A DNA stretch of 64,000 nt from Acidimicrobiales bacterium. GTDB taxonomy: Bacteria; Actinomycetota; Acidimicrobiia; Acidimicrobiales; JAVJTC01. The notes under the pieces are model-generated. The model had not been told where the DNA came from. It made no database searches and worked only from the letters and a program-made list of their open reading frames with translations. Every line of letters starts with the position of its first letter. Position 1 is the first letter of the stretch. The position numbers and the translations under genes are program-made. The DNA lies in the NCBI GenBank assembly GCA_040219085.1, contig JAVJTC010000031.1, forward strand, positions 1 through 64,000, written 5' to 3'. Shown one piece after another: positions 31,039 to 63,054 of the stretch.

Positions 31039-31959
31039 TCAGATCTCACCCAGGAGGTGGTGCTGGAAGGTCGGCAGCTCGAGGCCGAGCCCGGCGGCGC
31101 GTCCGCGGATGGCCCTGATGGACGCGACCACGATCGGCCCTTCCCATTCGGCTCGGACGCCGCCCAGGCCGGCGTCGAACACCAACTCGTCGACAGCCAC
31201 CTCCTCTGGCGTCGGATCGACTGCGAGCCACGCCGACCGGTAGCCGGCCAGCTCGACGTCCCGGATCATCGAGATCATCGCCTGGCGGCAGTCCTCGAGT
31301 TCATCGGCCGACATCTGCGGTGCGCGGTGGGCGAGGTACTCCCAGCCGAAGTCGCAGTGGCGGACCTCGTCGCGCAGGATGAGCCGGAAGATCTGCTTCG
31401 CCACCGGGTTCGTAGCGGCCCGAACGAGTTCGAGAAAGACGTCGTAGACGACCGTCTCAGCGACACAGACGAGTCCGGCGATCGTCACCTCGAGCGGCCG
31501 TGACCTGTCGAGCACCCGGGCACGCGTGCCCAGCGCGCCGGCGATCGCCTTCAACTCCTCGTCGGAGGGTTGCAGGTGGTAACCACCGAGGGCGTCGGCC
31601 ATGCGCATGCACACCTCGGCATGGCGGACCTCTTCCTGGGTGCGTAGCGCCCAGAAGAGACTGAGGTCCGGCTCGCGACCCTCGAGGACGTAGCGGAACT
31701 GCATGGCGGGGCTCTCAGAGATGGCCCCGTACTCGCCCCACGCCCGTCGTGACCAGTAGACCCGGGCCGCCTCGATGACCTCGGGGCTGTACTGCTCGGG
31801 GTTCACCTCGTCCCAGGGGATCGCGGTCTCGGGATCCCAGGCGGTCTTGACCGCGGCGCGGTACATACGGCGGATCGCCGGGACCGTCTCGCCCAGGTCG
31901 AGTGAAACGTGGTGGTCCGGGAGCTCGAGTACGTCGTGGGGTGGTGTCGGTGCAGTCAC
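31039..31959 (-). CDS. Ferritin-like diiron protein, canonical ligands (pair 1)
   Basis: The 306-residue helical protein carries a full carboxylate-bridged diiron ligand set: Glu in AISESPAMQ, the first ExxH in TQEEVRHAEV, a Glu in VCVAETVVYD and the second ExxH in LRDEVRHCDF. The layout is that of AurF-like/ferritin-like oxygenases rather than storage ferritins. It could be an N- or C-oxygenase on a small molecule. The GTG start overlaps the stop of the degenerate sister gene (31956-32912) by GTGA, so the two are translated together, probably as a heteromer. It is the fourth gene after ALDH, TenA and the sister protein in an operon behind the regulon motif at 35182. A closely similar protein is at 39826-40764. 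Confidence 0.8.
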   Translation of the reverse strand: MTAPTPPHDVLELPDHHVSLDLGETVPAIRRMYRAAVKTAWDPETAIPWDEVNPEQYSPEVIEAARVYWSRRAWGEYGAISESPAMQFRYVLEGREPDLSLFWALRTQEEVRHAEVCMRMADALGGYHLQPSDEELKAIAGALGTRARVLDRSRPLEVTIAGLVCVAETVVYDVFLELVRAATNPVAKQIFRLILRDEVRHCDFGWEYLAHRAPQMSADELEDCRQAMISMIRDVELAGYRSAWLAVDPTPEEVAVDELVFDAGLGGVRAEWEGPIVVASIRAIRGRAAGLGLELPTFQHHLLGEI

Positions 31960-32912
31960 CGTGGGCTCCTCGGGGATGCGGGCGCGGTCTCGATCGACGT
32001 GGCGGCTCCACCGTCGAGGCCGAGACGGTCGAGGTCTGCGTGCAGCGCCGCCAGGGCGGCCGTGACGGCCTCACCCTGAGCGACGAGGGTCGCGGCGCCG
32101 AGACCAGCGTGTGCGGTGAGCTCCTCGGCCATGCGCAGCTCGGCTCCGCCCGCGATGTCCTCGTCGACGAAGGCGACGCAGCGCCGTCCGCTCAGAACGT
32201 CGAGGCGGACGACGTCGACGACGTTGGCCGTCACGGTTGCCCGTGCGTCGTCGTCGAGGCGGTCCAGGCGTGCTTCCGCGTAGATTCGTCCGGCGGTCTC
32301 CTGACGCTCGATGTCCACGAGTATCCGTTCCAGGGCGCCCCGACACGTGGCGTCGGTCGTCGCGGCCACGGCGGTCTCGAGGAGCGCGCGGTCGATGGTC
32401 GCGAGGACGACGAAGTGGGCGACGACGTAGGCGTCGAAGTCGACCCGCTCGTCGAGTGCCCGTCTGATCGGTTCCGCGGTGAAGAGCGCTTCTGTTCCCT
32501 CCGGTGGCGTCGCCCGGTACCCGCCGAGACGCTGCGCGATGCGGTGGCACGCGTCGGCCGCGACCGCCCGCTCGGTTCCCCGGGTGGCGAGGACGAACTT
32601 GAAGTCGGCCTCCCGGTCGAGTTCGAGGCAGCTTCTCACGAGGGCGGCCTCGGACTCGGAGATGTCGGCGAAGGACAGCCACGCACGCCGGGACCAGCTG
32701 AGCGCAGCCGCCGCCCGGGTCTGATCGTCGAGTCGGTCGACATCGATCGCAGTGATGTCGAGATCGTCGGCGACGTTCCAGATCGACGCGTTCGACTCGT
32801 GATAGAGCCGTCGCAGCTCTGGGATCCGGGTGGAGAGATCGAGCGGATAGCGGCGTTCGGTCGGCAGCGGGAACGGCTCGTCCCGGGACAGGGTGACCGA
32901 TTCGGTGGTCAC
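31956..32912 (-). CDS. Degenerate ferritin-like protein lacking iron-binding histidines (pair 1)
   Basis: The 318-residue protein follows the fold of its neighbour (SWSRRAWLSFADISESEAAL aligns with YWSRRAWGEYGAISESPA), but the metal motifs are gone: EEVRH is replaced by ERAVAAD, the mid-helix AETVVYD by ATIDRAL, and DEVRH by DIERQET. It cannot form the standard diiron site. It is placed between TenA and the canonical protein with GTGA overlaps on both sides, which favours a 1:1 structural or regulatory subunit. A second degenerate protein with the same losses accompanies the second canonical copy (38864-39796). Confidence 0.75.
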   Translation of the reverse strand: MTTESVTLSRDEPFPLPTERRYPLDLSTRIPELRRLYHESNASIWNVADDLDITAIDVDRLDDQTRAAAALSWSRRAWLSFADISESEAALVRSCLELDREADFKFVLATRGTERAVAADACHRIAQRLGGYRATPPEGTEALFTAEPIRRALDERVDFDAYVVAHFVVLATIDRALLETAVAATTDATCRGALERILVDIERQETAGRIYAEARLDRLDDDARATVTANVVDVVRLDVLSGRRCVAFVDEDIAGGAELRMAEELTAHAGLGAATLVAQGEAVTAALAALHADLDRLGLDGGAATSIETAPASPRSPR

Positions 32913-33589
32913 GGGGTCGCCGCGTCCGGCCAGGTCTGCATCGTGTAGGCCATGTCCCAGAATGCCGCCTCGAAGCGGGCTCCGGCCAGGAAGCGGCGCC
33001 GTAGGCGCGGCAGGTCCCGCTCGTCGACGTCGCCCACCACCTCGTCGAGCTCGCCGAGCAGTCCCTTCAGGTAGGTGCCGTACTCGTCACTGGCGAAGAA
33101 GCCGAGCCAGTCGCTGTACACCGGGTGCGAGGCGGGCTCGGGATGGCGCAGGGCGATCTCGTGGTAGCTCCAGGCACACGGAAGGATCGCCGCCATGATG
33201 TCGAGCGAGTCACCGGTCGACGCAGTCGCGACCAGGTAGCTGGTGTAGGCGAGACAGGTGGGGGAGGGTTCGGTCGCAGCGCCGTGGTCGGCGGCGCCCA
33301 GTGCGACGATCGCGTCGCGCAGGCGCCGGTTCGTGTCCAGCTCCACGTCGACGATCTGGGACAGCGAGTGGGTGAAGCGTTCCAGCTCTGCCCGGCTCGT
33401 GGCCCGGGCGGCGCCCAGCCCCAGGACCTTCGCGTACTCGGGGAGGTACTGGAGGTTCTGCTCGATGTAGTAGCGGAACTTCTCCGGCGGGAGGGTGCCG
33501 TCGGCCATGTCCGCGACGAACCGGTTCGCGAGCAGCGTCTCCCAGATTGCGTCGTACGGTTCCCTCAGTGCCTCGGTGAAGCGGGCCAT
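32909..33589 (-). CDS. TenA/thiaminase II family protein 1 (Asp-to-Asn variant)
   Basis: The 226-residue all-helical protein is a TenA/TENA-THI4 member. It keeps the nucleophilic Cys (AAILPCAWSYHE), the C-terminal Glu (ARFEAAFWDMAY) and the aromatic pocket (TSYLVATAS). At the pyrimidine-contact position (Asp44 in Bacillus TenA, in a QDSYYL context), it has Asn45 in EQNLQYL. TenA enzymes hydrolyse aminopyrimidines or thiamine; the swap suggests altered substrate preference. The ATG at 33589 has a GGAGGAACC site. It is in an operon with an ALDH upstream and the diiron pair downstream (overlap 4 bp). Confidence 0.85.
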   Translation of the reverse strand: MARFTEALREPYDAIWETLLANRFVADMADGTLPPEKFRYYIEQNLQYLPEYAKVLGLGAARATSRAELERFTHSLSQIVDVELDTNRRLRDAIVALGAADHGAATEPSPTCLAYTSYLVATASTGDSLDIMAAILPCAWSYHEIALRHPEPASHPVYSDWLGFFASDEYGTYLKGLLGELDEVVGDVDERDLPRLRRRFLAGARFEAAFWDMAYTMQTWPDAATP

Positions 33590-33620: not shown

Positions 33621-35096
33621 TCACTCGGCGAGGTTGACCCATACGGTCTTGGACTGCAGGTACGCGTCGAGCGATTCCTCGCCGAGTTCACGGCCGTAGC
33701 CACTCATCTTGAAGCCGCCGTACGGGGCGGCGACGTCGAACATCCCGTAGGTGTTGACCCACACGGTGCCCGCGCTCAGGGCCGCAGCCACGCGGTGGGC
33801 GCGACGCACGTCAGTGGTCCAGATGCCGGCGGCGAGCCCGAAGCGGATGTCATTGGCCGTCGCCACGACGGCGCTCTCATCGTCGAAGGTGGACACTGCC
33901 ACGACGGGGCCGAAGACCTCGTCCTGCATCACGGCCATCGTCGGGTCGACGTCGGTGAGAACGGTCGGTCGGATGAAGTGGCCCGACGACAGCGCGCCGT
34001 CGCCGCGTTCACCGCCGACGAGGACCGTCGCTCCCTGGGAGCGGGCCGTCTCGACGTGGCCCAGGACCCGGTCGAGTTGGGTCTGGGACACGAGCGGCCC
34101 CATGTCGGTGCCGTCGTCGAGTCCGTTGCCGAGGTGGATCGAGCCGGCCTTCTCCACGAGGCGCGCCGTGAGCTCATCGGCGATGTCTGTGTGGGCGAAG
34201 AGCCGCGCACCCGCGATGCAGCACTGGCCCTGGTTGAAGAAGACGGCACCGAACGCACCCTCCACAGCGGCGTCGATGTCGGCGTCCGCGAACACGATGT
34301 TCGGCGACTTTCCGCCGAGCTCGAGCGTCACACGCTTCAGGTTCCCCTTGGAGGCGTCGAGGATTTTGCGGCCGGTTTCGAAATCGCCGGTGAAGGAGAC
34401 CTTGTCCACACCGTCGTGGGCCGCCAGGGGTGCGCCCGTTCCGGGACCGTCGCCGGTAAGGATGTTCACGACACCCGGCGGGAAGCCGGCCTCCATGATC
34501 AGCTCGCCGAGGCGGAGAGCCGACAACGGGGTCTGTTCGGCGGGCTTGAGGACCACGGTGTTGCCCGCGGCCAGAGCCGGGCCGAGCTTGTAGCCGCACA
34601 TGAGCAGAGGGAAGTTCCAGGGCACGATCGCACCCACGACGCCCATCGGTTCGCGTCGGGTGTAGGTGTGGAAGTCCGGAAGCGACACCGGCAGCTGGCG
34701 GCCCTCGATCTTGGTCACCCAGCCGGCGTAGTAGCGGAAGATCTCGATGGTCAGCGGGAGGTCGACGGCCATCGCGTCGCCGTAGGTCTTGCCGTTGTCC
34801 AACACGTCCAGTTGGGCGAACTCGTCCGCGTGGGTCTCGATGAGGTCCCCGAGTCGCCACATGAGCTGTGCCCGCGCGGTGGGCGCCATCGCTCGCCACC
34901 CGGCGAGGGCGTCGCGGGCTGCAGCGACGGCGTCATCGACGTCGGCCGCGCCGGCCTGGGGAACGGTGGTCAGGATCTCCCCTGTGGCGGGGTTCTCGAC
35001 GTCGAAGTGGCCGTCGCGACCGGTGGTCCAGTCTCCTCCGATGAGATTGGCCCGCTCCGAGCCGATGAACGTCCGTACCGATTCGAGCAGTTCCAC
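33621..35096 (-). CDS. NAD(P)-dependent aldehyde dehydrogenase 1
   Basis: The 491-residue ALDH-superfamily enzyme has the catalytic Cys in FNQGQCCIAGARL, the general-base Glu in VTLELGGKSPN, Asn in IVPWNFPL, the cofactor GxxxxG-type segment in VSFTGDFETG, and a C-terminal DEVFGPVVAV. It oxidises an aldehyde to an acid in the cytoplasm. I use the GTG at 35096 (GGGAG upstream), which begins the conserved N-terminus; ATG 35171 is an alternative. It is the first gene of the operon with TenA1 and the diiron pair, about 90 bp downstream of the regulon motif at 35182. The acyl-CoA ligase is divergent from it. Confidence 0.88.
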   Translation of the reverse strand: MELLESVRTFIGSERANLIGGDWTTGRDGHFDVENPATGEILTTVPQAGAADVDDAVAAARDALAGWRAMAPTARAQLMWRLGDLIETHADEFAQLDVLDNGKTYGDAMAVDLPLTIEIFRYYAGWVTKIEGRQLPVSLPDFHTYTRREPMGVVGAIVPWNFPLLMCGYKLGPALAAGNTVVLKPAEQTPLSALRLGELIMEAGFPPGVVNILTGDGPGTGAPLAAHDGVDKVSFTGDFETGRKILDASKGNLKRVTLELGGKSPNIVFADADIDAAVEGAFGAVFFNQGQCCIAGARLFAHTDIADELTARLVEKAGSIHLGNGLDDGTDMGPLVSQTQLDRVLGHVETARSQGATVLVGGERGDGALSSGHFIRPTVLTDVDPTMAVMQDEVFGPVVAVSTFDDESAVVATANDIRFGLAAGIWTTDVRRAHRVAAALSAGTVWVNTYGMFDVAAPYGGFKMSGYGRELGEESLDAYLQSKTVWVNLAE

Positions 35097-35181
35097 GTCC
35101 GACTCCCGTTTCGTCCGCCCGGTGGCCGCACCGCCGGGTCGCATGAGCGCCAGATCCCGTGTGGGCGTCATGCCCGGGAGG

Positions 35182-35257: not shown

Positions 35258-36865
35258 ATGTCGCATGACCGGCCGAGAGATGGCGATCCCGTTCGGCCAC
35301 CGTCGTACACGCCGCTGCATCCGGTGTCCTTTTTGCGTCGGGCGGGTCAGGTCCATGCGGATCGGACCGGCGTGATCGACGGCGACGTGGAGTTGAGCTA
35401 CGGCGAGCTGTGGTCCCGGGCTCAGCGGTTGGCGGGGGGACTGAGGGCGGCCGGAACAGCCCCGGGCGACCGGGTGGCGGTTCTCGCGCCGAACACGACG
35501 GTGATGTTGGAGGCCCACACCGGCGTACCGGCGTGTGGCGCGGTGCTCGTGGCCCTCAACATCCGGCTCACGGCGGCCGACCTCGGGGCGATCCTCGCCC
35601 ACTCGGGGGCGCGGATACTGATCGCCGATCACGAGTTCGCGGCCACGGCTTCCGGGGCGGTCGCCGCGGCCGGCACACGCTGCGACGTCGTGATCTCCAA
35701 CGGCGTCGACGGGGACTACGAGGCGCTCCTCGCGACCGCTGAGCCGCTCGACGACCCGCTCGACGACGAGTTGGGACTGCTCGCTCTCAACTACACGAGT
35801 GGTACCACGGGGCGGCCGAAGGGCGTCATGTACAACCCGCGTGGGGCGTATCTGCAGGCGATGGCGATGGCGCTGCACATGCGACTCGGGCCGGAGTCGC
35901 GGTTCTTGTGGACGTTGCCGATGTTCCATTGCAACGGGTGGTGCTTCACCTGGGCGGTGACCGCGGCCGGTGGGACCCATGTCGGGCTGCGCAGGGTCAC
36001 GCCGGACGCGATCTGGGACGCCATCGCCCGTCACGGCATCACGCACTTCAACGCGGCCCCTACGGTGTTGACGGACCTCGTCGAGAATGCGCCCAGCGAC
36101 GCCGCAGGGCGGTCGGGTCCGCCGATCCGGGTGGGGACCGGCGGGTCGCCGCCCACGCCGACGTTGCTCGCCCGACTCGCAGAGCTCGGGATCGAGGTCA
36201 CCCACCTCTACGGCCTGACCGAGACGTACGGGCCGTCGGTGGTGTGTGACTGGCATCCCGAGTGGTCGACCCTCGGCCCGGCCGAACAGGCCGCACTCAA
36301 GGCCCGCCAGGGCGTGGGAAACGTGATCACCGCGGGTGTGCGCGTGGTGGACCCGCTCGGCGTCGACGTCGCAGCCGACGCATCCACCGTCGGCGAGATC
36401 ACCGTTTCGGGCAACAACGTCATGGCCGGCTACCTCGACGACCCGGCGGCCACAGTGGAGGCCATCCCCGACGGATGGTTCCGTACCGGCGACCTCGGCG
36501 TGATGCACCCCGACGGCTACGTGGAGCTCAAGGACCGCGCCAAGGACGTCATCATCTCCGGCGGCGAGAACATCGCGTCGGTCGAGGTCGAGCGCGCCAT
36601 CGCCTCGCATCCTGCGGTGGCCGAGGTCGCCGTCGTCGCGATGCCCCATCCCCGGTGGGGCGAGGCCCCCGCCGCGTTCGTGACGCTGCGCCGTGGTGCC
36701 GTCGTCACCGAGGAGGAGATCGTCGCCCACGCACGCAGCACACTCGCCGGATACAAGATTCCCCGCCGGGTGATCTTCGGGGACCTTCCGAAGAACGCCA
36801 CCGGCAAGGTTCAGAAGTTCGCTCTGCGAGAACTCGCCGGCGAGGGGCCCGAGGAGGGTGGTTGA
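35258..36865 (+). CDS. AMP-forming acyl-CoA ligase
   Basis: The 535-residue adenylate-forming enzyme has the P-loop LNYTSGTTGRPKGVMYN, the A5 motif YGLTETYGP, the A7/A8 region GWFRTGDLGVMHPDGYVELK and DVIISGGENI, and the A10 lysine in PKNATGKVQKF. It resembles medium-chain/methylmercaptopropionate-type acyl-CoA synthetases (DmdB-like), activating a carboxylate with ATP and CoA. A GGAGGGGCGAC ribosome site precedes the ATG. It is divergent from the ALDH1 operon with one regulon motif between, so an acid made by the ALDH could be its substrate; that link is inference. Confidence 0.87.
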   Translation: MSHDRPRDGDPVRPPSYTPLHPVSFLRRAGQVHADRTGVIDGDVELSYGELWSRAQRLAGGLRAAGTAPGDRVAVLAPNTTVMLEAHTGVPACGAVLVALNIRLTAADLGAILAHSGARILIADHEFAATASGAVAAAGTRCDVVISNGVDGDYEALLATAEPLDDPLDDELGLLALNYTSGTTGRPKGVMYNPRGAYLQAMAMALHMRLGPESRFLWTLPMFHCNGWCFTWAVTAAGGTHVGLRRVTPDAIWDAIARHGITHFNAAPTVLTDLVENAPSDAAGRSGPPIRVGTGGSPPTPTLLARLAELGIEVTHLYGLTETYGPSVVCDWHPEWSTLGPAEQAALKARQGVGNVITAGVRVVDPLGVDVAADASTVGEITVSGNNVMAGYLDDPAATVEAIPDGWFRTGDLGVMHPDGYVELKDRAKDVIISGGENIASVEVERAIASHPAVAEVAVVAMPHPRWGEAPAAFVTLRRGAVVTEEEIVAHARSTLAGYKIPRRVIFGDLPKNATGKVQKFALRELAGEGPEEGG

Positions 36866-36898: not shown

Positions 36899-37981
36899 TC
36901 AGTCGAAGCCGATCACGGTTCGTGCGACGTTGCCGCCTCCGAGCGCGGCCATCGCCTCGCCGACGCGATCGAGTGGCAGACGGTCGGTCACCAGCGAGTC
37001 CAGATCCAGGCGACCGTCGAAGTAGAACTCCACGAACCGTGGCGCGTCGGTGCGGAACTGGTTGCTGCCCATGCACGATCCCTGGATCTTCTTCTCCGCG
37101 AGGAAGTCCACGCCGGGCAACTCGATGTTCGTTCCCAGCGCGATCATCCCGATGATCGTCGCCGCCCCACCGGGGCGGAGCATCGCGAACGCCTGCGCCG
37201 GGGTGGTGGCGAGGCCGATCGCGTCGAAGGCGTGGTCGACGCCGCCCCCGGTCATCTCGAGGATCTCGCCGGCTGGATCGGTTCCCGAGGCGTCGATGGT
37301 GTCGGTCGCGCCGAAACGCTTCGCCATCTCGAGCTTCTCGGGGACGACGTCGACGGCGATGATCCGCAGGGCACCGGCGATGCGGGCGCCCTGGATCGCG
37401 CTGAGCCCGACTCCGCCGCAGCCGATCACGGCGACGCTCTGCCCGGGGGATACGGCGGCCGTGCGGAACACCGCACCGAGGCCGGTGGTGACGGCACAGC
37501 CGATCAGCGCAGCCTGGTCGAAGGGCATGTCCGGGCGGATCTTGACGAGAGCGTGCTCGTGGACGAGTAGTTCCTCGGCGAACGAAGAGACGTCCGCGTA
37601 CTGGTGGATCACCTCGCCGTCCTGGGACAGGCGCGGGGGCGCGCCCGCCGGGCGCATCGTGTCCTCGTGGGGACACAGGGCCATGTGGCCGCTCAGGCAG
37701 TACTCGCAGTGGCCGCAGAACACCGACAACGAGGTGATGACGTGGTCACCGGGCTTCACGTAGGACACCTGGTCGCCCACGGCCTCGACGACTCCGGCTG
37801 ACTCGTGGCCCATCACGGTGGGCACCGGCGTGTCGTAGGCGCCGGTCAGGTAGTGGTTGTCGCTGTGGCACACCCCCGCGGCGACGGTGCGTACGAGCAC
37901 CTCCCGCGGTCCGGGCGCGTCGATCTGGACCTCCTCGACGGTCAACTCTCCGGGGACCGAGCGCAACAGGGCGGCTCTCAT
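36899..37981 (-). CDS. Zinc-dependent alcohol dehydrogenase (MDR family) 1
   Basis: The 360-residue enzyme has catalytic-zinc ligands in GVCHSDNHYL and VMGHESAGVVEAVG, the structural-zinc cysteines in CGHCEYCLSGHMALC, and the NAD loop VIGCGGVGLSAIQGA. The long insertion and structural site place it with class III-like alcohol dehydrogenases. It should oxidise a primary alcohol to an aldehyde. GAGGAGGTG precedes the ATG at 37981. It is the last gene of the operon diiron protein 2, degenerate sister, creatininase-like, ADH, so it may act on a hydroxylated product. Confidence 0.88.
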   Translation of the reverse strand: MRAALLRSVPGELTVEEVQIDAPGPREVLVRTVAAGVCHSDNHYLTGAYDTPVPTVMGHESAGVVEAVGDQVSYVKPGDHVITSLSVFCGHCEYCLSGHMALCPHEDTMRPAGAPPRLSQDGEVIHQYADVSSFAEELLVHEHALVKIRPDMPFDQAALIGCAVTTGLGAVFRTAAVSPGQSVAVIGCGGVGLSAIQGARIAGALRIIAVDVVPEKLEMAKRFGATDTIDASGTDPAGEILEMTGGGVDHAFDAIGLATTPAQAFAMLRPGGAATIIGMIALGTNIELPGVDFLAEKKIQGSCMGSNQFRTDAPRFVEFYFDGRLDLDSLVTDRLPLDRVGEAMAALGGGNVARTVIGFD

Positions 37982-38033: not shown

Positions 38034-38867
38034 TCATGACGTGCCGTCGACCACGCGGGCCTCGAGCAGCGGTCTCGCGCGCAGCTCGGCGACGATCGTC
38101 GCCAGCTCGACTCCGCCGGCGTCGAGCATGGCCCGGCCGAGTTCCGCGGTAGCGCCTCTCGGATCACCGCGCACGCCGTTGCGGGACCAACCGCTCCATG
38201 GCTCGGTGACATGGATCGGTCGCCGATAGGTCGGGTCGGGGAGCCGGCCGAGCGTGTCGCGCCAGATGTGTGGGGACGTCGGGAACTCCTCGCCGGGTTC
38301 GAAGCGGTCTGTGTGGACGACGTCGGGCGCGAGCGCCAACATCAGCGAGGTCTCGAACGCGCAGGCGTGACTGGCGGGTGTGTCGGGGCCCTGTTCCACA
38401 GCCACCTCGCGCACATCGCCCAGTTCCCACCACGACACGGACGCGAAGAGGTGGCGCGGATGGGCGAAGAGGGCTTCACGGGAGGCGAGGTCGAGCGGTG
38501 CGACATTCGACCCGTGTCCGTTGACGGCGAGGACCCGCCGGAACCCTGAGCGTGCGTAGGAGGAATACACCTCGCTCAGCACGGTGATGAGCGTGGCGGT
38601 GGTGTGGTAGACGGCGCCCGGGAAGTCGGCGAGGTGCTGGCTCAGTCCGAACGGGACCGTCGGTCCGACCACGGCCGTGCCCGGCGCGCAGGCGGCTGCG
38701 GCAGCATGGGCGAAGCCCTCGGCGATGCGGTTGTCCGTGTCGAGCGGGAGATGGGGTCCGTGTTGTTCGACCGTGCCCACCGGCACGATCACGACGGCAT
38801 CGGCCCGGGCGAGACGGGCGGTCTCCTCCCATGTGAGGTCGGTGAGGACGAGGCCGTCGCCGCTCAT
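38034..38867 (-). CDS. Creatininase/FAPy-deformylase family amidohydrolase
   Basis: The 277-residue protein has the metal ligands of the creatininase fold: Glu and His in GTVEQHGPHLPLDTDN (with Asp), His in AVNGHGSN, and Glu in ASHACAFETS. The family hydrolyses C-N bonds: creatininase, MftE-type peptidase and a formamidopyrimidine deformylase in riboflavin/F420 synthesis. In this context a formylamino- or amide-hydrolysing role on a pyrimidine-like intermediate is plausible but unproven. The ATG overlaps the upstream degenerate ferritin-like stop by ATGA, so it is translationally coupled to the diiron pair. Confidence 0.83.
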   Translation of the reverse strand: MSGDGLVLTDLTWEETARLARADAVVIVPVGTVEQHGPHLPLDTDNRIAEGFAHAAAAACAPGTAVVGPTVPFGLSQHLADFPGAVYHTTATLITVLSEVYSSYARSGFRRVLAVNGHGSNVAPLDLASREALFAHPRHLFASVSWWELGDVREVAVEQGPDTPASHACAFETSLMLALAPDVVHTDRFEPGEEFPTSPHIWRDTLGRLPDPTYRRPIHVTEPWSGWSRNGVRGDPRGATAELGRAMLDAGGVELATIVAELRARPLLEARVVDGTS

Positions 38868-39796
38868 CGGCCTGCGACGGTGACGGGCGCAATCACGATG
38901 TCCAGATCCGCGAGGCGTGCGGCGACCTCGGTCAGTGCGGACTCCACCGCGTCCAGTTGCTCCGCCTCGGTGACGCCGGCGAGGCCGGCGGTCGCGGCGA
39001 CAGAGTGGGCGGTCATCAGGCCGTCGCGGTCGGTACCCGCTGCGAGCAGCGCAGGGACGCGCCGCCCCCTCAGCTCCTCCTCCACGATGACGTACTCGAC
39101 TGCGGCGGCGATGGCCCGCCGGTCCGCTTCGGTGCGGCCGGGGATCGTCTCGGCCAGGTGGGTCCACGCGACCTCGAGCATGCGGGCCTTGTCGCGCACG
39201 ACGAGGCCGATGAGCCCGGCCAGCGGCTCCCGGGCGTTGGCTGCCGCGGCCTCCCACATCCGCAGGTCCACGGTCGCCTGGGCTCCGAGATGCGCTGCGA
39301 TGTAGGCGTCGAGATCGGAGTCGACGTGCAGGGCTCGACGGACGAGTTCGTCGTCGAGCAGGCCGGCCAGCCCGGTGCCAGTCGGTTCGGACTCGTAGTG
39401 ATCCAGTCGAGCGGCCACCATGTGGGCCAGATCGGTGGAGCGTGCCCGTTCGACCGCGCGCATCGACAGGCAGTACTTGAGGTCGATGTCGACGCCGGGT
39501 TCGAGGCAGGCCCGGATGAGCACCGCCTCGGATTCCGCGATCGCTGGGAACTCGATCCACGCGAGGTGGCTCCAGACGAGAGCGCCACCAGCGCGCGTCG
39601 CCTCGTCGTACGTGGCGACGTCGAAGCCCTTCCAGAGTGCCTCGTCCTCGGGGTCCCACACCTCGCGCAGCGCGGTCTCATAGGCGTCCCAGACCGTCGC
39701 GCTCGACGACGTCAGGTCGAGCGGGAAGCGCTGCTCGGTTCCGAGCCGGAACGGGCGGGTGAGGTCGAGTGCGGTTGTCTCGGCCGACGCGGTCAT
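38864..39796 (-). CDS. Degenerate ferritin-like protein lacking iron-binding histidines (pair 2)
   Basis: The 310-residue protein mirrors its partner at 39826-40764 (WSHLAWIEFPAIAESEAVLI aligns with WSRRAWGEYGAISESPALLL). The diiron motifs are lost: EEVRH reads ERARSTD and DEVRH reads DKARMLE; the middle AEVIAFD is ATVDLRM. The same positions are lost in the protein at 31956-32912, so the pairing is an old, maintained arrangement. AGGAGTTGCC precedes the ATG at 39796. It probably forms a complex with the canonical subunit. It overlaps the creatininase-like gene by 4 bp. Confidence 0.72.
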   Translation of the reverse strand: MTASAETTALDLTRPFRLGTEQRFPLDLTSSSATVWDAYETALREVWDPEDEALWKGFDVATYDEATRAGGALVWSHLAWIEFPAIAESEAVLIRACLEPGVDIDLKYCLSMRAVERARSTDLAHMVAARLDHYESEPTGTGLAGLLDDELVRRALHVDSDLDAYIAAHLGAQATVDLRMWEAAAANAREPLAGLIGLVVRDKARMLEVAWTHLAETIPGRTEADRRAIAAAVEYVIVEEELRGRRVPALLAAGTDRDGLMTAHSVAATAGLAGVTEAEQLDAVESALTEVAARLADLDIVIAPVTVAGR

Positions 39797-52905: not shown

Positions 52906-52949
52906 CCGACCAGCCGGGACACGGAAACCACGACGACAGGAGCGGACCG

Positions 52950-53911: not shown

Positions 53912-53924
53912 GTCTAAGATCTTA
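53909..53924. promoter_or_regulatory. Regulon motif, site f (TenA2), partial, over the start codon
   Basis: CATGTCTAAGATCT at 53909-53922 is identical to 42389-42402 at site c, and TAAGATCTTA (53915-53924) is palindromic. The right half deviates from TRAGATCTNAGAT. On the minus strand TAAGAT ends 8 bp before the ATG and could double as the -10 box, so a bound regulator would cover the promoter and start. Confidence 0.5.
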
Positions 53925-55444: not shown

Positions 55445-55480
55445 TCACCATGGGAGCCACGTCATCGCCGAGGAGGGAAC

Positions 55481-56368
55481 GTGACTGTTACCAGAGCGGA
55501 TGCCGGAGCCGAGCCGGCCGTCGCGGGGCCGGGAGCGCATGAGGTCGTACCGCATGCCGGCCGTAGTCTCCCAGCGCGGCTCGGGAGTGCGGTGTGGCGG
55601 GGTGTGAAGCTGTTGACTCCGCCGCTACTCCTCGTGGCGGCACTCATCGGGTTCTGGCAGTGGTACGTCGTCACCAACGACGTCCGGCCGTCGACGCTGC
55701 CCTCGCCGGGTCGGGTGGTGCAGCAGGGCTGGCGTTTCCGTGACCAGCTCTGGGAGAACACGAAGCCGACGCTCCAGGAGACCTTCATCGGCTTCAGCCT
55801 GTCGGTCGCCATCGGGTCCCTGTTCGCCATCGCGATCGACTTCTCGAAGATCATCCGCCGCGCCGTGTACCCGGTGCTCGTCGCGTCCCAGACGCTGCCC
55901 ATCATCGCGATCGCGCCGCTGATGATCATCTGGTTCGGCTTCGGGCTGCTGCCGAAGATCATCGTGGTCATCCTGGTGACTTTCTTCCCCATCACGGTGG
56001 CGCTCAGCGACGGCTTCCGCTCCGCTGAGGCCGAGGCCATGGACCTGCTCGGGTCGATGGGTGCCAGCCGCTGGGAGGTGTTCCGCTACGTCCGGCTCCC
56101 GAGCGCGCTCCCGTCGTTCTTCTCCGGGCTCAGGATCTCGATCACCTATGCGGTGGTGGGAGCCGTCTTCGCTGAATACGTCGGCGCGAAGAAGGGCCTC
56201 GGCATCTTCATGCTGTTGCAGAAGAACTCGTTCCGGACCGACCTCGTGCTCGCAGCCGTGTGCGTGACAGCGCTCGTGAGCGTGTCGCTGTTCATGCTGG
56301 TCTCGGTGATCCAGCGCCTCACCATCCCCTGGTACGCGGCATCACGCGCCCACAAGACCAACAACTGA
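55481..56368 (+). CDS. ABC transporter permease, TauC/ThiX type
   Basis: The 295-residue protein has a 40-residue cytoplasmic leader, six membrane helices (first LLTPPLLLVAALIGFWQWY) and the coupling EAA loop EAMDLLGSMGASRWEVFRYVRLPSALPSFFSGLRI region. It belongs to the NitT/TauT/ThiX permease family and pairs with the upstream ThiY-like binding protein. The GTG at 55481 follows GGAGGGAAC. No ATPase gene is adjacent; the likely ATPase is at 44176-45009. The operon continues with three amidohydrolases. Confidence 0.87.
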   Translation: MTVTRADAGAEPAVAGPGAHEVVPHAGRSLPARLGSAVWRGVKLLTPPLLLVAALIGFWQWYVVTNDVRPSTLPSPGRVVQQGWRFRDQLWENTKPTLQETFIGFSLSVAIGSLFAIAIDFSKIIRRAVYPVLVASQTLPIIAIAPLMIIWFGFGLLPKIIVVILVTFFPITVALSDGFRSAEAEAMDLLGSMGASRWEVFRYVRLPSALPSFFSGLRISITYAVVGAVFAEYVGAKKGLGIFMLLQKNSFRTDLVLAAVCVTALVSVSLFMLVSVIQRLTIPWYAASRAHKTNN

Positions 56369-56398: not shown

Positions 56399-57733
56399 AT
56401 GACAGACCGGATCATCATCGAGAACGCCATCGTCGTGACCATGAACGACGGCGACGACGTCCACTTCGACGGGTCCGTGGTCATCGAGGGGGACCGCATC
56501 GTCGCCGTCGGCCGCGACGCCGCAGCGCCATACGAGCGAACCGGGGCCAAGGTCATCGACGCATCCGGCAAGGCCGCCCTGCCGGGCCTCGTCGACCTCC
56601 ACTACCACACCGCGCTGGGCAAGGGCTGGTCCGACCACCTCCCGCTGTGGGAGTACCTCCAGTCCTGCTGGTACCCCATGATCCGGGCGCTCGACCCCGA
56701 GGCCGCCTACTGGGCCGCGATGGCCAGTTACAGCGAGTCACTGCGGACCGGCACGACGACCATCAACGACATGTACAGGCAGCTGCCGGCGATCGGCCGT
56801 GCGGCCGAGGAGATCGGCATCCGCGCCGTCCTCTGCAACGACGTCGCCGACGACGAACACGATCTGGACACGCTCGCCGACAACGAATCCGCGTACAGGG
56901 AACTGCACGGCTCGGCGGACGGACGGATCGAGGTGCTCATCGGTATCGAGTGGCTCCCACTCGCGTCAGGTGGTCTGTTGCGCGACGCCCGGGCACTCGC
57001 CGACCAACTCGGCACGGGCATCCACATCCACCTCAACGAGTCGCTCAGCGAGGTCGAGATCTCCAAGAAGACCTTCGGTCGTCGCCCGACCGAGTTCGCC
57101 TACGACTGCGGGATTCTCGGTCCGGACTGCATCGCCGCGCACTGCGTCTGGCTCACCGACGCCGAGATCGCGCTGATGCGCGAGACCGGCACCCAGATCT
57201 CTCACAACCCGACCTCCAACGCGAAGCTCGGCAACGGGGTCGCCCGCCTGCCCGAGATGCTCGCCGCGGGTCTCAACGTGGGCCTCGGTCACGACGCCGC
57301 CGAGTGCAACAACAGCCGCGACATGTTCCAGGTGATGAAGTGGGCCTCGCTCGTCCACCGTGCGACACGGGTCGACGCGTCGCTGGGACAGGCGCCGGAC
57401 ATATTGCGGATGGCCACGCGCAACGGTTCGGCGGCGCTCGGACACGAGACCGGTCAGCTGAGTGTCGGCACGCTCGCCGACGTCATCCTCGTCGACCTGA
57501 AGTCCCAGTTCTTCACGCCGCTGATGCCCGAGAGCAAGGCGCATCTCTACTCCCATCTCGTCTTCTCGGCCGACGGATCGTCGGTCGACACGACGATCGT
57601 CAACGGTCAGGTCCTCATGGAGGGCCGTGAGTTCACGACGATCGACGAGCAGGAGGTGCTCGCCCGGGCCAACGAGCACTTCCAGGCGGTCGTCGGCCGG
57701 ATGGTCGTACCGCCCGAGTACGCCGACCTCTGA
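56399..57733 (+). CDS. Amidohydrolase (TRZ/ATZ deaminase-like)
   Basis: The 444-residue protein is a TIM-barrel amidohydrolase related to S-adenosylhomocysteine/guanine deaminases and triazine hydrolases: HxH in VDLHYHTALG, His in GIHIHLNES, His in IAAHCVWLT and the metal Asp in LGHDAAECNN. The usual GTD is GHD here. It should hydrolyse an amino, formylamino or similar group on an N-heterocycle. GGAGGAGAG precedes the ATG. It is the first enzyme gene behind the ThiY/ThiX transporter genes (30 bp after the permease), so it probably acts first on the imported compound, in the way YlmB deformylates imported pyrimidine in Bacillus. Confidence 0.85.
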   Translation: MTDRIIIENAIVVTMNDGDDVHFDGSVVIEGDRIVAVGRDAAAPYERTGAKVIDASGKAALPGLVDLHYHTALGKGWSDHLPLWEYLQSCWYPMIRALDPEAAYWAAMASYSESLRTGTTTINDMYRQLPAIGRAAEEIGIRAVLCNDVADDEHDLDTLADNESAYRELHGSADGRIEVLIGIEWLPLASGGLLRDARALADQLGTGIHIHLNESLSEVEISKKTFGRRPTEFAYDCGILGPDCIAAHCVWLTDAEIALMRETGTQISHNPTSNAKLGNGVARLPEMLAAGLNVGLGHDAAECNNSRDMFQVMKWASLVHRATRVDASLGQAPDILRMATRNGSAALGHETGQLSVGTLADVILVDLKSQFFTPLMPESKAHLYSHLVFSADGSSVDTTIVNGQVLMEGREFTTIDEQEVLARANEHFQAVVGRMVVPPEYADL

Positions 57734-57788
57734 GTCGGAAGCACCCCTCGCCCGCACGCAGACACCCGACCGCTCCCCCGGAGAACCC

Positions 57789-59342
57789 ATGACACGCACG
57801 CTCGTCGTCGGCGACCCCGTCGTCACCCTGTCCGACGCCGGCCTCATCGTCGACGGTGCTCTCATCGTCGAAGGCCGCCAGATTGTCGCCGTCGGGTCGC
57901 GTGAGGCGCTCAGCGCCCGCGGACCGTTCGACCAGGTCGTCGGCTCCCCGGAACACTTCGTGATGCCCGGCTTCATCAACTGCCACTACCACTCGGAGCT
58001 GGCGGTAGGCCCTGGCCTGTTCGAATTCATCTTCGAGCGGGCGAACGTCATGCTCGTCCACCCCGAGCAGGGCGCCGATCCCGCCGACGTCCACACCGTC
58101 GTCTTGTGGGGCCTGGTCCAGGCGATGAAGGGCGGCCAGACCGCCGCGATCGACTTCTTCTACGGTCGACCCGGCATGGAGCACTTCTCCGCGCCTGCCG
58201 CGCTCGAGGCCTACCGCGACGCGGGGTTCCGCGTCGCGTTCGGGCTCGTGAGCCGTGACGAGAACATCTACGCACACGAGCCCGACGACCAGTTCCTGGC
58301 ACGACTCCCCGCCGATCTCGCAGCCGAGGTGCGCGCATCGACCATGGGGTACGCATGGCCTGTCGACGAGGTCCTCGGATCCTTCGAGTCGCTCGCCGAG
58401 ACCTGGCACGAGCGCGACGACCTCATCCACATGGTCCTTGCCCCGGACTGGACGCCTTCCTGCTCCGACGATCTCTACCGGCGCTGCGTCGCACTCGCCG
58501 AGGAGTACGACACCTGCCTGACCACCCACGCCCTCGAGACACGGGCCGAGATGATGTTCAACCTCGAGCGCTACGGCATGTCAGCGCTGAAGCGGCTCGA
58601 CGGCCTCGGGGTTCTCGGCCCCCGCACGAGCCTCGCCCACTTCGTGTGGGTCACCGACGACGACGTCGCTCTGTTCGCGGACTCGGGAGCGGTCGCATCG
58701 AACAACCCCGGCTCGAACCTGCGTCTCTCCACGGGGATCTGCCGCACGAGGGACCTGCTCGACGCCGGTGGCAACGTCGGGATCGGCACCGACGGGATCT
58801 CGTTCTCGGACCGTGACGACTTCTTCCAGGAGCTCCGCCTCGCCGCCTACCTCCAGCGCACGCCCCACCGTTTCGAGGTCGGTCGCCTCGACTCCGAGAA
58901 GTTGCTCCGCACCGCCTCGCACAGTGGCGCCGCGGCGACGGGATGGGGAGGTCGTCTCGGTGAGCTCTCCGAGGGGATGCTCGCCGACCTGCTCGTGGTG
59001 AAGAAGGACCGGGTCTTCTTCCCGCCGGGTCGTTTCGCCATGACGCCGCCGCTCGATGTCATCATCGACCGCACGGAGTCCGCCGACATCGACGCCGTGA
59101 TGATCAACGGGCGGCTGGTGATCGAGGACGGCACCGTGACGGTGGTCGATGAAGATGCGCTGCGCGAGAAGGTCGTCGACGCCACCACGCGCCTGTACCC
59201 CCTGGGTGCGAGTACGCAGACCACCGGAATCTCCGCCCGTGTCGACCCGTACATCGTCGATTTCTACCAGCGGTGGTACGACACGCCGGTGCAGCCCGCG
59301 TATCTCTACAACCCGAAGGTGGACCCGGAGACCGGGGTCTGA
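57789..59342 (+). CDS. Long amidohydrolase paralogue A (about 520 residues)
   Basis: The 517-residue amidohydrolase has metal ligands HxH in INCHYHSEL, His in LTTHALETRAE, His in SLAHFVWVTDD, and Asp in IGTDGISFSDRDD. It shares with the protein at 60875-62443 the signatures LAPDWTPSCSD, VQAMKGGQTAAIDFFYGRP and a C-terminal DFYQRWYDTPVQPA extension that ordinary deaminases lack. It is therefore a distinct subfamily; function unknown. GGAGAACCC precedes the ATG. It is followed two bases later by the ACMSD-like gene, all in the transporter operon. Confidence 0.83.
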   Translation: MTRTLVVGDPVVTLSDAGLIVDGALIVEGRQIVAVGSREALSARGPFDQVVGSPEHFVMPGFINCHYHSELAVGPGLFEFIFERANVMLVHPEQGADPADVHTVVLWGLVQAMKGGQTAAIDFFYGRPGMEHFSAPAALEAYRDAGFRVAFGLVSRDENIYAHEPDDQFLARLPADLAAEVRASTMGYAWPVDEVLGSFESLAETWHERDDLIHMVLAPDWTPSCSDDLYRRCVALAEEYDTCLTTHALETRAEMMFNLERYGMSALKRLDGLGVLGPRTSLAHFVWVTDDDVALFADSGAVASNNPGSNLRLSTGICRTRDLLDAGGNVGIGTDGISFSDRDDFFQELRLAAYLQRTPHRFEVGRLDSEKLLRTASHSGAAATGWGGRLGELSEGMLADLLVVKKDRVFFPPGRFAMTPPLDVIIDRTESADIDAVMINGRLVIEDGTVTVVDEDALREKVVDATTRLYPLGASTQTTGISARVDPYIVDFYQRWYDTPVQPAYLYNPKVDPETGV

Positions 59343-59343: not shown

Positions 59344-60357
59344 ATGGCACTCGTCATCGATGCCCACACCCACATCCTGAGCCTGTCCGCGGATCCCGAG
59401 TTCACCGCGGCCTACGGTCGGGAGGGTTCGTTGTGCATCTGTCGCAGCATGGGGAAGCTTCCGACGCATCGTCAGCCGACCGACGAGGAATGGGACGAGT
59501 CGGGGTTGTTCGACAAGGCGTTCCTCACCATCGGACCCTCCGAGACGGTCGCTGCGCACCCGGGATTCGACAAGATCGTCATCCTCGGGGTGTCGCCCCA
59601 GTACCTGGACGGACAGCTGATCGGGACAGTCGACACGACCGGTATCACCGGTGTGGAGGGCCCGCCCCACCCCGACAGGTGCAACGACTACATCGCTGCA
59701 TGCGTGGCGATGGACCCCGATCATCTGATCGGCTTCGCGTCCGTCAATCCGATGTACAAGGGCGTTGCGCACGCGGTCGCCGAGCTGGAACGAGCTGTCG
59801 TCGACCTGGGTCTGTCGGGCGTGAAGCTCTACCCGATGTACCAGCACTGGTCACCCGAGGACCGCGAGGTTGCGTTCCCCGTGTTCGCCAAGGCAGCCGA
59901 ACTCGGCATCCCGGTGATGGTCCACCAGGCCGGATCCACCCGGATCGACGCGAAGATGTCCTACGCCCGACCGGCGATGCTCGACGACATCGGCCGCGAG
60001 TTCCGGGATCTCGTCGTCATCCTCGCCCATTGCGGGATCCCGTGGATCGACGAGGCGATGTTCATGCTGACCAAGCACCCGAACTTCTACACCGACCTGA
60101 GCTACCACATCGCGACGATCACCCGGCGTGAGCTCTTCGAGTTCCTCCACCGGGCCGAGCCGTTCTTCGTACCGCTGGAGAAGCTGTTCTTCGGTACGGA
60201 CTATCCGGGCTTCCTCTACGACCCGATCGCGTTGCGCGAGAAGCTGATGACGGTGAACGAGGAGGCCGCACCGTTGGGGCTCGACCCCATACCCGAGGAG
60301 AAGCTGCACGGGATCATGGGCGACAACCTCGCCCGAGTCCTCGGCCTCGAGGGCTAG
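59344..60357 (+). CDS. ACMSD-like metal-dependent hydrolase (amidohydrolase 2 family)
   Basis: The 337-residue protein is an amidohydrolase-2 (PF04909) member: HxH in IDAHTHILSL, His in VMVHQAGSTR, His in VILAHCGIPW and the metal Asp in FFGTDYPGF. The family includes aminocarboxymuconate-semialdehyde decarboxylase, gamma-resorcylate decarboxylase and lactone/imine hydrolases, so a decarboxylase or hydrolase step on an opened ring is plausible. The ATG begins two bases after the preceding stop. Its stop shares CTAG with the convergent VOC gene stop. Confidence 0.84.
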   Translation: MALVIDAHTHILSLSADPEFTAAYGREGSLCICRSMGKLPTHRQPTDEEWDESGLFDKAFLTIGPSETVAAHPGFDKIVILGVSPQYLDGQLIGTVDTTGITGVEGPPHPDRCNDYIAACVAMDPDHLIGFASVNPMYKGVAHAVAELERAVVDLGLSGVKLYPMYQHWSPEDREVAFPVFAKAAELGIPVMVHQAGSTRIDAKMSYARPAMLDDIGREFRDLVVILAHCGIPWIDEAMFMLTKHPNFYTDLSYHIATITRRELFEFLHRAEPFFVPLEKLFFGTDYPGFLYDPIALREKLMTVNEEAAPLGLDPIPEEKLHGIMGDNLARVLGLEG

Positions 60358-60782
60358 GTGCGCCCGGTCTCCGTGGCGTCCGAAGGCGCCATCTCCTGGA
60401 CCAGTTCGACCATCACGCCGTCGAAGGCCGACGGGTGGACGAAGGCGATCAACGTGTCGCCCCCGCCGCGGCGGGGCTCGTCGTCGATCACGCGTAGGCC
60501 CCGGTTCTTGAGATCGGCGAGGGCGGCTGCGACGTCGTCGACCTCGAGGGCGATGTGGTGCAGACCCGGCCCCCGCGATTCGATCGACCGGGCGACCACG
60601 CCCTCGCCGGTTGCCTCGAGGGTCTGCAGGTGGCAGTCGCCTACGGGCCACATGCGCTCGGTGAACCCCGGGCCGTCCTCGACGTGGTCGACCGCGAGGT
60701 CGCATGCCCCCTCGAGTATTCCAAGAAGCGGAGAGTCGCCGTCATGGGCCAGCGCCACGTGATGAATACGTCGAACCTTCAT
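60354..60782 (-). CDS. VOC-family protein, methylmalonyl-CoA epimerase-like
   Basis: The 142-residue protein has the four metal positions of methylmalonyl-CoA epimerase: His in RIHHVALAHD, Gln in HLQTLEATG, His in GLHHIALEVD and Glu in VMVELVQE. It could racemise a methylmalonyl-CoA-like thioester for the mutase encoded at 47604-49632, though other VOC enzymes share the ligands. GGGAGGATT precedes the ATG. It is divergent from the amidohydrolase paralogue B gene (93 bp) and converges with the ACMSD-like gene, stops overlapping by four bases. Confidence 0.8.
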   Translation of the reverse strand: MKVRRIHHVALAHDGDSPLLGILEGACDLAVDHVEDGPGFTERMWPVGDCHLQTLEATGEGVVARSIESRGPGLHHIALEVDDVAAALADLKNRGLRVIDDEPRRGGGDTLIAFVHPSAFDGVMVELVQEMAPSDATETGRT

Positions 60783-60874: not shown

Positions 60875-62443
60875 ATGACACGGAGGACCCTGGTGATCGG
60901 CGACCCGGTCTTCGTCGGCGGGGCGACGGGCGTCCTCGACGACGGCGCTCTCGTGATCATGGATGACACCGTCGAGGAGGTGGGTCCGAGGGCCGTTCTC
61001 GAGACACACGGCCCGTTCGACGAGGTCATCGGGGGGCCCGACGTCGCTGTTCTTCCCGGCTTCGTGAACGCCCACTACCACACGGAGTGCTGGACGGCAC
61101 CCGGGCTCATCGACGAGATCTTCGAGCTCGGCAACCTCTACGTCGGTTCCAGCATGATCGAGACCGACCTCGAGGTGATCGAGCTCCTGGCGACCTACGG
61201 CCTGGTGCAGGCCCTCAAGGGCGGCCAGACGACGACCATCGACGCGTTCTACGGCCGGCCCTCGGTGCCGTTGCTCGGAGCCGAGGCCGTGATGACCGCG
61301 TACGACCGGGTCGGGATGCGTACGGCGCTCGCTCTGTCGCTGCGGGATCAGAACCGCTACGGGCACCGCAGCGACGACGAGATGCTCGCTGCGCTCCCAC
61401 CGGAGATCGCGGCGGAGGTCCGGGCGTCGCCGCTGGGCTATGCCTGGCCGATCGACGAGATGGTCGCGATCTTCCACGAGCTCCACGACCGCTGGGACGG
61501 ACGTGACGGTCGCTTCCGCGTCATTCTGGCGCCCGACTGGACTCCCGCCTGTTCTGACGAGCTCTATGTCAGGGCCCGGCGTCTCGCGGACGACTACGAC
61601 GTGCCACTCACCTCCCACGTCCTCGAGACCCGCGCCGAGCTGATGTGGAACCTCGACGTCTACGGAAAGCCCGGCGTGCGCCGACTCGCCGACCTCGGCG
61701 TGCTCGGTCCCGACGTCTCGTTCAGTCACTTCGTATGGGCCACGGACGAGGACATCGCCATCGCTGCGGACCACGGGGTGACAGCCGTGAACTGCATCGG
61801 ATCCAACATGCGGACCTCGGTCGGTCTGTGTCGGGTGCGCGACATCCTCGAGGCCGGGGGCCGGGTGGCCTTCGGCACCGACGGGGTGTCCGTCGGCGAC
61901 CGCGAGGACTTCCTCTCCGAGATCCGGGTGGCGACGATTCTGCAGCGTCAACCCGACCGGTTCGACGAGCACCGCATCGATTCCGAGATCGTTCTCGGTT
62001 CGGCGACGGCCGCCGGCGCGGCCGTGAGCGGATTCGGTTCGAAGCTGGGGACGCTCGAGCCCGGCTGCCTGGCGGACCTGGTGTGCGTCGACACGAGCCG
62101 CATCATGTTCCCGCGGACGCGTTATCCGCGGGAGCGCATTCTCGATGTCCTCGTGGACCGTGCTGACGCCGGCGACATCAGCCGTGTCATGGTCGCCGGG
62201 AAGGTCGTCGTCGCCGACGGTCGTGTCCTCACCATCGACGAGGACCAACTCGTGGAGCGGATCACCGACATCGAGGATCGGCTCTACCGGCCGACGTCGG
62301 AGGCTGTCCGCCGCAGCGAGCTCGCTGCCATGTTCAAGCCCCAGGTCGTCGAGATGTGCGAGGACTGGTACAGCCGGCCCATCACCCGGCCCGCCTCCAT
62401 CTTCAACACCCGGTCCGCGCCGGGGCCCGCGTCTTCGACGTGA
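60875..62443 (+). CDS. Long amidohydrolase paralogue B (about 520 residues)
   Basis: The 522-residue protein is a clear paralogue of 57789-59342: HxH in VNAHYHTECW, His in LTSHVLETRAE, His in SFSHFVWATDE, Asp in FGTDGVSVGDRED, plus LAPDWTPACSD and VQALKGGQTTTIDAFYGRP. It differs in the N-terminal region and C-terminal tail, suggesting another substrate of related shape. GGAGGAAGCG precedes the ATG. It overlaps TenA3 by GTGA, an unusual coupling of an amidohydrolase with a TenA protein that echoes YlmB-TenA chemistry in thiamine salvage. Confidence 0.83.
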   Translation: MTRRTLVIGDPVFVGGATGVLDDGALVIMDDTVEEVGPRAVLETHGPFDEVIGGPDVAVLPGFVNAHYHTECWTAPGLIDEIFELGNLYVGSSMIETDLEVIELLATYGLVQALKGGQTTTIDAFYGRPSVPLLGAEAVMTAYDRVGMRTALALSLRDQNRYGHRSDDEMLAALPPEIAAEVRASPLGYAWPIDEMVAIFHELHDRWDGRDGRFRVILAPDWTPACSDELYVRARRLADDYDVPLTSHVLETRAELMWNLDVYGKPGVRRLADLGVLGPDVSFSHFVWATDEDIAIAADHGVTAVNCIGSNMRTSVGLCRVRDILEAGGRVAFGTDGVSVGDREDFLSEIRVATILQRQPDRFDEHRIDSEIVLGSATAAGAAVSGFGSKLGTLEPGCLADLVCVDTSRIMFPRTRYPRERILDVLVDRADAGDISRVMVAGKVVVADGRVLTIDEDQLVERITDIEDRLYRPTSEAVRRSELAAMFKPQVVEMCEDWYSRPITRPASIFNTRSAPGPASST

Positions 62444-63054
62444 CGGCCTCGGACCTGCTCCGGTCGATCGGCGAGCCCGAGATCGTGCGCTGGCTCGACC
62501 ATCCCACGGTGACCGGGCTCGCCTCCGGTGAACTGCCGCGTGACGACTTCGTCGCCTGGGCCCGTCAGGACTGGATCTATCTGCACCACTACGTGCGGGT
62601 CTACGCGTCGCTCGCTGCCGTGGCCCCCGGACCGCTCGTGCCCGAGATCGTCGGGATGGCGCACAACCTCGCCGCGATCGAGCTGGGCCTGCTGCGGGAC
62701 CTCTCCGATGGGATGGGCTTCGTCATCGACGGAGCGGAGCCCGCCGCTGTCACGGCTGAGTACATGGAGTTCCTGTCCTCGAACATGGCGGACTTCGGCC
62801 TCGGTCTGGCGGCCGCGCTGCCCTGCCTGTGGGGGTACACGCGTCTGGGCCTGTTGCTCGGTGTCGACGATCTCAGCGACGACCACCCCTATGCGCCGTG
62901 GTTGAAGACGTACGGTGGTGACCCGCTGCGCGAGCGGGTGGGGCGACTCCTCATCCTGCTCGACGCGGCGACGCCGTCACCTCGTGAGGTGGAGCGACTC
63001 GTGCGGGAGGCCTTCGTTCTGGAGTGGCGGTTCTGGGACGTGCCGAGCCACTGA
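62440..63054 (+). CDS. TenA/thiaminase II family protein 3
   Basis: The 204-residue helical protein has TenA landmarks: Asp44 in ARQDWIYLHHY, Cys in AAALPCLWGYT and Glu in FVLEWRFWDVP near the C-terminus. The GTG start at 62440 overlaps the amidohydrolase stop by GTGA. With an amidohydrolase directly upstream, the pair looks like a deformylation or deamination step followed by C-N hydrolysis. It is the third TenA protein within 31 kb; the three are divergent in sequence, so they probably do not share one substrate. Confidence 0.83.
   Translation: MTASDLLRSIGEPEIVRWLDHPTVTGLASGELPRDDFVAWARQDWIYLHHYVRVYASLAAVAPGPLVPEIVGMAHNLAAIELGLLRDLSDGMGFVIDGAEPAAVTAEYMEFLSSNMADFGLGLAAALPCLWGYTRLGLLLGVDDLSDDHPYAPWLKTYGGDPLRERVGRLLILLDAATPSPREVERLVREAFVLEWRFWDVPSH

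Follow-up and report, generated by a model that had tools for sequence, protein, structure and literature searches.

Several described systems share parts with the gene cluster reported here. The ThiXYZ-YlmB-TenA system of Bacillus, which salvages base-degraded thiamine for the cofactor, has in common with it a ThiY-like binding protein, ABC transporter parts, TenA and a deacylase of the M20 class; however, the cluster has three TenA proteins, a deaminase, dehydrogenases, a reductase and CoA- and B12-dependent steps, and it is not accompanied by a riboswitch in the window or by ThiD or ThiE in searches of the genome. In the indoleacetate (Iaa) pathway, the product of an opened N-heterocycle is activated by the CoA-transferase IaaL, and the B12 mutase IaaGH then rearranges it from one to the other of the substituted succinyl- and malonyl-CoA forms (PMC8360864). 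By pathway logic rather than by sequence, it is a precedent for ending an N-heterocycle route with a CoA-transferase and a B12 mutase, although the front end of the cluster is different and no IaaF-type dehydrogenase was seen in it. Reductive pyrimidine catabolism (Pyd) shares the logic of reductase, ring hydrolase, deacylase and aldehyde dehydrogenase, as well as a class III aminotransferase that lies within the cluster in two relatives (L016:6187-7575 and L027:8551-9909) and is absent from the present one, but here an F420-type reductase stands in for dihydropyrimidine dehydrogenase and a CoA and B12 end is added. Two single enzymes are also related: 2-hydroxyisobutyryl-CoA mutase (HcmAB), which likewise has split subunits and is the closest PDB match of the large mutase subunit, and NicX, 2,5-dihydroxypyridine 5,6-dioxygenase, the kinship of which is at the profile level. 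No described thiamine catabolic gene cluster was found in the literature searched, the scope of which left out most subscription journals, so that earlier descriptions may exist.

The cluster spans 32 kb (31039-63054) of a window of 64,000 nucleotides, contig C31 of a 3.77 Mb MAG that is 96% complete, and consists of 30 genes, many of them overlapping by 4-22 bases (Table 1). Several ORFs start downstream of the longest-frame start. The genes flanking the cluster at either edge have no relation to its contents; downstream of the window, a glycosyltransferase is fused to an EAL domain (L020:7632-10682). A preliminary description had proposed oxidative breakdown of thiamine fragments or a related N-heterocycle, and family HMM searches recovered every protein class that it had named: three TenA proteins, a ThiY-like transporter, a PF01910 protein, two ADHs, two ALDHs, a CoA ligase, a family III CoA-transferase, a split B12 mutase, amidohydrolases (AH1-AH4 and one creatininase-family protein) and diiron proteins, whose count is now four AurF/ferritin-like members, including that at 38864-39796. 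Two M20 deacylases, an F420-type luciferase-like reductase, a NicX-like protein and a methylmalonyl-CoA-epimerase-like protein had been missing from that description. Tentatively, with a probability of about 0.45, we read the cluster as an island that breaks down the pyrimidine moiety of thiamine or a closely similar 2-methyl-4-amino(oxo)pyrimidine.

Table 1. Genes of the cluster, with positions in the window.
Gene product	Position	Strand	Basis
diFeA, ferritin-like diiron protein, full ligand set	31039..31959	-	AurF PF11583 just below cut-off; ligand residues; model folds
diFeB, degenerate partner without ExxH ligands	31956..32912	-	paralogue of diFeA; ligands lost
TenA1, thiaminase II family, Asn at Asp44 position	32909..33589	-	TIGR04306 140 bits; alignment to B. 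subtilis TenA
ALDH1, aldehyde dehydrogenase	33621..35171	-	PF00171 E 6e-178
Acyl-CoA ligase; no homologue in relatives' loci	35258..36865	+	PF00501
ADH1, zinc alcohol dehydrogenase	36899..37981	-	PF08240, PF00107
Creatininase-family amidohydrolase	38034..38867	-	PF02633 E 8e-63
diFeC, degenerate diiron partner	38864..39796	-	
diFeD, complete diiron protein	39826..40764	-	
ALDH2, aminobutyraldehyde-dehydrogenase subfamily	40877..42337	-	PRK13473 653 > 615 bits
GntR/FCD regulator	42478..43173	+	
NicX-like putative ring-opening metalloenzyme (core)	43182..44153	+	profile match, 2,5-dihydroxypyridine 5,6-dioxygenase E 4e-7
ABC transporter ATPase, taurine/nitrate class	44176..45030	-	
ADH2, zinc alcohol dehydrogenase	45098..46204	-	
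M20a, ArgE/DapE-type deacylase (core)	46312..47607	+	PF01546; TIGR01910 176 bits < cut-off 218
B12-binding small subunit of acyl-CoA mutase (core)	47604..48032	+	TIGR00640 144 > 57 bits
Acyl-CoA mutase large subunit (core)	48022..49632	+	best PDB 4r3u HcmA E 4e-155
Family III CoA-transferase (core)	49626..50825	+	PF02515 E 4e-103
M20b deacylase	50822..51916	+	PF01546
Luciferase-like F420-type reductase, Mer class (core in nearly all relatives)	51913..52905	+	best PDB Mer E 1e-42
PF01910 thiamine-binding protein family	52884..53243	+	65.6 bits, cut-off 24.9
TenA2, canonical Asp, Tyr, Cys, Glu	53264..53938	-	PF03070
ThiY-like substrate-binding protein (NMT1)	54243..55364	+	PDB 4nmy E 7e-49; FAMP-binding 3ix1 E 2e-32
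ABC permease	55472..56368	+	PF00528
AH1, heterocycle-deaminase-type amidohydrolase	56399..57733	+	MTA/SAH deaminase and atrazine hydrolase class
AH2 amidohydrolase	57780..59342	+	
AH3 amidohydrolase	59344..60357	+	PF04909
VOC protein, methylmalonyl-CoA-epimerase-like	60354..60782	-	TIGR03081 80 bits < cut-off 115
AH4 amidohydrolase	60875..62443	+	56% homologue in L027
TenA3, canonical Asp, Tyr, Cys, Glu	62356..63054	+	PF03070 51 bits

Scanning with the NicX-like protein as query yielded 16 loci in 16 other genomes, onto which the 30 cluster proteins were then mapped (L035 and G093:C35, which the order-level search had given as L016, are one contig). Because gene content and order recur in these 16 genomes, the cluster is beyond chance. 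The hosts are MAGs titled Acidimicrobiia, Acidimicrobiales, Acidimicrobiaceae or Actinomycetota, and three titled only 'bacterium'. All loci that are long enough share a core of the NicX-like protein, M20a, both B12-mutase subunits and the family III CoA-transferase; nearly all of them also encode the F420-type reductase, and many encode M20b and the epimerase-like VOC protein. The modules around this core are exchangeable. One of them, comprising the ThiY-like protein, permease, ATPase, AH1, the PF01910 protein and one TenA, is present in the window, L016/L035 and L027, the three genomes in which a thiamine-type front end is joined to the core; another, comprising diFeC, diFeD, the creatininase-family protein, ADH1 and one TenA, is present in the window, L016/L035, L021 and L028; and a third arrangement (L030-L034) has one ADH and one ALDH, with AH1 nearby in four of the five loci. 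AH1 occurs at 70-85% identity in the genomes of seven relatives (L027, L030-L035). In L022-L025 and L036 the core stands without ThiY, AH1 or TenA alongside.

Several other genes were encountered around these loci. A ModABC-like transporter lies directly upstream of the core at L023:7261-9907, and a similar ATPase is in the same position in L022, L024, L025 and L036. In L031, where a rhodanese-type sulfurtransferase is also found, the transporter encoded upstream of the core was suspected from its size to be ThiB/ThiP, an identity that NCBIfam did not support. In one relative, a Rieske (VanA-type) oxygenase separates diFeA from TenA (L027:6145-7125), and an alkyl-sulfatase-type metallo-beta-lactamase protein lies between the NicX-like gene and ADH2 at L021:10972-12876. 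In G257:C99, G258:C43, G259:C57 and G261:C39, away from the core, genes for an AH1-like amidohydrolase (about 48%) and a ThiY-like protein (about 35% in all but one of these contigs) are 2-3 kb apart. The genome of L022, an Acidimicrobiia MAG, contains an open frame of 24375 aa, a would-be giant protein, near G249:C16 559644-559784.

As for the thiamine-type front end, the binding protein is similar in sequence to a solved FAMP-binding ThiY, and the ATPase is encoded on the opposite strand, 9 kb from the binding protein and permease. All three TenA proteins pass PF03070 (E 4e-35, 1e-17 and 2e-13 for TenA1, TenA2 and TenA3), while the thiaminase II model TIGR04306 is passed by TenA1 only (cut-off 130 bits). 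Asp44 of TenA is reported to form hydrogen bonds with the HMP-P amino groups, and the D44A mutation to impair the enzyme (PMC5623701). TenA2 and TenA3 retain Asp44, Tyr47, Cys135 and Glu205 of B. subtilis TenA. TenA1, which aligns to the latter at E 3e-35, retains Cys135 and Glu205 and has QN in place of QD, the Asn being found also in the homologues from L021 and L028. A similar pair of residues is known from thymidylate synthase, in which Asn goes with uracil, and dCMP hydroxymethylase, in which Asp goes with cytosine. By this analogy, the Asn of TenA1 suggests a 4-oxo ring substrate. A fourth protein of the TenA/heme-oxygenase fold is encoded beside a cytochrome P450 at L018:9235-9999 (G000:C34); by eye it is unlike thiaminase II.

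The diiron proteins seem to come in two pairs. All six ligands (four carboxylates and two His, with two ExxH motifs) are kept in diFeA and diFeD, those of diFeA (E82, E110-H113, E168, E198-H201) being invariant in eight homologues, and the ligand set is lost in diFeB and diFeC. Each complete gene adjoins that of a degenerate partner, which together with the residues points to two catalytic/non-catalytic pairs. Scores of 29.5 and 23.6 bits miss the AurF gathering score (29.6), and a PDB sequence search with the diiron proteins gave nothing beyond weak or designed-bundle matches. The predicted model of diFeA (pLDDT 83) has weak fold matches to R2lox, phenylacetyl-CoA monooxygenase (PaaA/PaaC) and the azoxy synthase VlmB. 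With diFeB as query, a search of 248 genomes sampled from the order matched only its own genome and G093.

Among the core enzymes, the NicX-like protein has E253, E270, E272, H279, H297 and D299 invariant among its homologues. The His and Asp of the NicX HxD motif are kept, but Glu is aligned with another NicX His, which we take to be metal-binding, so that the metal site and the reaction may differ; its AlphaFold model (pLDDT 59) is too poor for use. M20a is likened to YlmB at the level of the ArgE/DapE superfamily. In the large mutase subunit, with pocket positions numbered and their roles assigned as we assume them for P. shermanii methylmalonyl-CoA mutase (MCM), eight homologues have the MCM-type Tyr or Phe at 89 and an invariant Arg207, whereas His, Phe and Gly replace Phe287, His328 and Gln330 of MCM in all eight. 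The identity prompted by the best PDB match, 2-hydroxyisobutyryl-CoA mutase, was rejected, as Hcm has Ile and Gln where this protein has Tyr/Phe and Arg; judging from the alignment, the latter is the carboxylate-binding Arg of MCM. One canonical MCM and one isobutyryl/Hcm-like mutase are encoded elsewhere in the genome, and the cluster mutase is therefore a specialised paralogue. The VOC protein, at 79.7 bits, fails the epimerase model, and its putative ligands H, Q, H and E are kept in a by-eye reading. The reductase is nearest to F420-dependent Mer, and since CofD is encoded in the genome, a supply of F420 in the host is plausible.

From gene content, conservation, active-site residues and the absence of salvage enzymes, all directly observed, we infer the substrates and the order of the following steps, the order by chemical reasoning. 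The ThiY-like transporter would import thiamine or its pyrimidine fragments, and TenA2 and TenA3 would release HMP by cleaving the bond at the 5-methylene. AH1 would deaminate C4, an ADH/ALDH pair would convert the 5-CH2OH to a carboxylate and the F420-type reductase would saturate C5=C6, after which the ring would be opened by the NicX-like enzyme and/or the hydrolases. If a 2-methylpyrimidine is opened between C2 and N3, C2 and its methyl are left behind as an N-acetyl group, which fits an ArgE/DapE-type deacylase, and the M20 deacylases would take it off. With C5' oxidised, C4, C5, C5' and C6 make up a substituted malonate, which fits the Arg-bearing mutase and the epimerase-like VOC protein; together with the CoA-transferase, these would lead it via substituted succinyl-CoA into central metabolism. 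TenA1, both diiron pairs and the second ADH/ALDH may provide side entries, perhaps serving the thiazole half or oxidised forms; the match of two ADHs and two ALDHs to two alcohols (HMP and the thiazole alcohol) is no more than suggestive. It is rather doubtful that the whole route holds, with F420-dependent reductive ring opening, deacetylation, a new mutase subfamily converting (acylamino-, amino- or hydroxy-)methylmalonyl-CoA to the matching substituted succinyl-CoA (aspartate/malate level), heterodimeric diiron oxygenases feeding it and a TenA re-tuned from Asp to Asn for 4-oxo pyrimidines; it would be the first gene-defined one.

Is thiamine then broken down or salvaged? A salvage role of the ThiXYZ-YlmB-TenA type, in which degraded thiamine would be recovered for the cofactor and the catabolic genes would be unrelated neighbours, is suggested by the ThiY-like transporter, the ArgE/DapE-type M20 deacylase and TenA, which resemble the described set, but it is highly improbable. 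Genome searches found neither ThiC nor ThiE (no PF02581 match) nor a ThiD over cut-off (best TIGR00097 match 33 bits), in a MAG that may miss genes. An Rfam search of the window gave zero matches, hence no TPP riboswitch at the cluster; the single one found in the genome is on contig C27, just before genes for a ThiB-ThiP-ThiQ-like transporter, called by eye from the translation. Thiamine pyrophosphokinase (TPK) is present, and the organism thus appears to import intact thiamine. With no ThiC, ThiD or ThiE, but with TPK and the riboswitch-linked transporter, HMP and FAMP are left without evident vitamin use, and catabolism is therefore better supported than salvage, in agreement with the preference for breakdown in the preliminary description. 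The conserved co-localisation also binds the parts together. Of eight relatives, G250, G258, G260 and G262 have ThiD over cut-off and G248, G254, G255 and G256 do not, and the island therefore does not track salvage ability; that G262, a relative with the same island, carries ThiD counts against catabolism of the thiamine pyrimidine.

The nature of the substrate is the harder question. Catabolism of another N-heterocycle or N-acylated amine (a differently modified pyrimidine, or a compound resembling creatinine or hydantoin), to which relatives of TenA and NMT1 would have drifted, is a real though not the favoured possibility. The loci in which the core has other neighbours than ThiY, AH1 and TenA mean that its substrate need not derive from thiamine; the Asn of TenA1, the creatininase-family member and the broad class of the amidohydrolases point the same way, and the 'related N-heterocycle' of the preliminary description is borne out by the NicX-like core enzyme and by AH1, a deaminase of the triazine/adenosine class. 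Against such drift, TenA, the ThiY-like protein, the permease and the PF01910 protein belong to thiamine-associated families and occur together in three genomes. These families fit thiamine or its fragments, as first proposed, although the link is not proven given cores without that front end. The Asn of TenA1 would also suit a 4-oxo pyrimidine such as oxythiamine if the cluster detoxified thiamine antivitamins (oxythiamine, bacimethrin) rather than fed the cell; this is more improbable still than salvage, as the CoA-transferase, mutase, epimerase-like protein and two ALDHs would be superfluous. Catabolism of the thiamine pyrimidine is favoured by the joining of front end and core in three genomes and the constancy of the core in all long-enough loci. 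It is also consistent with the likeness to FAMP-binding ThiY, the catalytic residues of TenA2 and TenA3, the relationship to an N-heterocycle-opening NicX and the probable free-carboxylate Arg kept by the mutase although a separate canonical MCM is present. Thiamine is scarce, however, and a role as bulk carbon source is unlikely.

In marine communities, thiamine and the pyrimidine fragments derived from it are exchanged while in scarce supply, and cells that take them up have mostly been regarded as obtaining a vitamin. As far as the sequences tell, a marine-type actinobacterium probably eats part of vitamin B1 instead of recycling it. If true, this would add to the vitamin B1 cycle a step that has largely escaped description, in which a conserved consumer, degrading fragments that are useless to it as vitamin, would act as a sink, and it would bring with it a B12 mutase that acts on a new substrate and, in TenA, a residue switch that can be tested.
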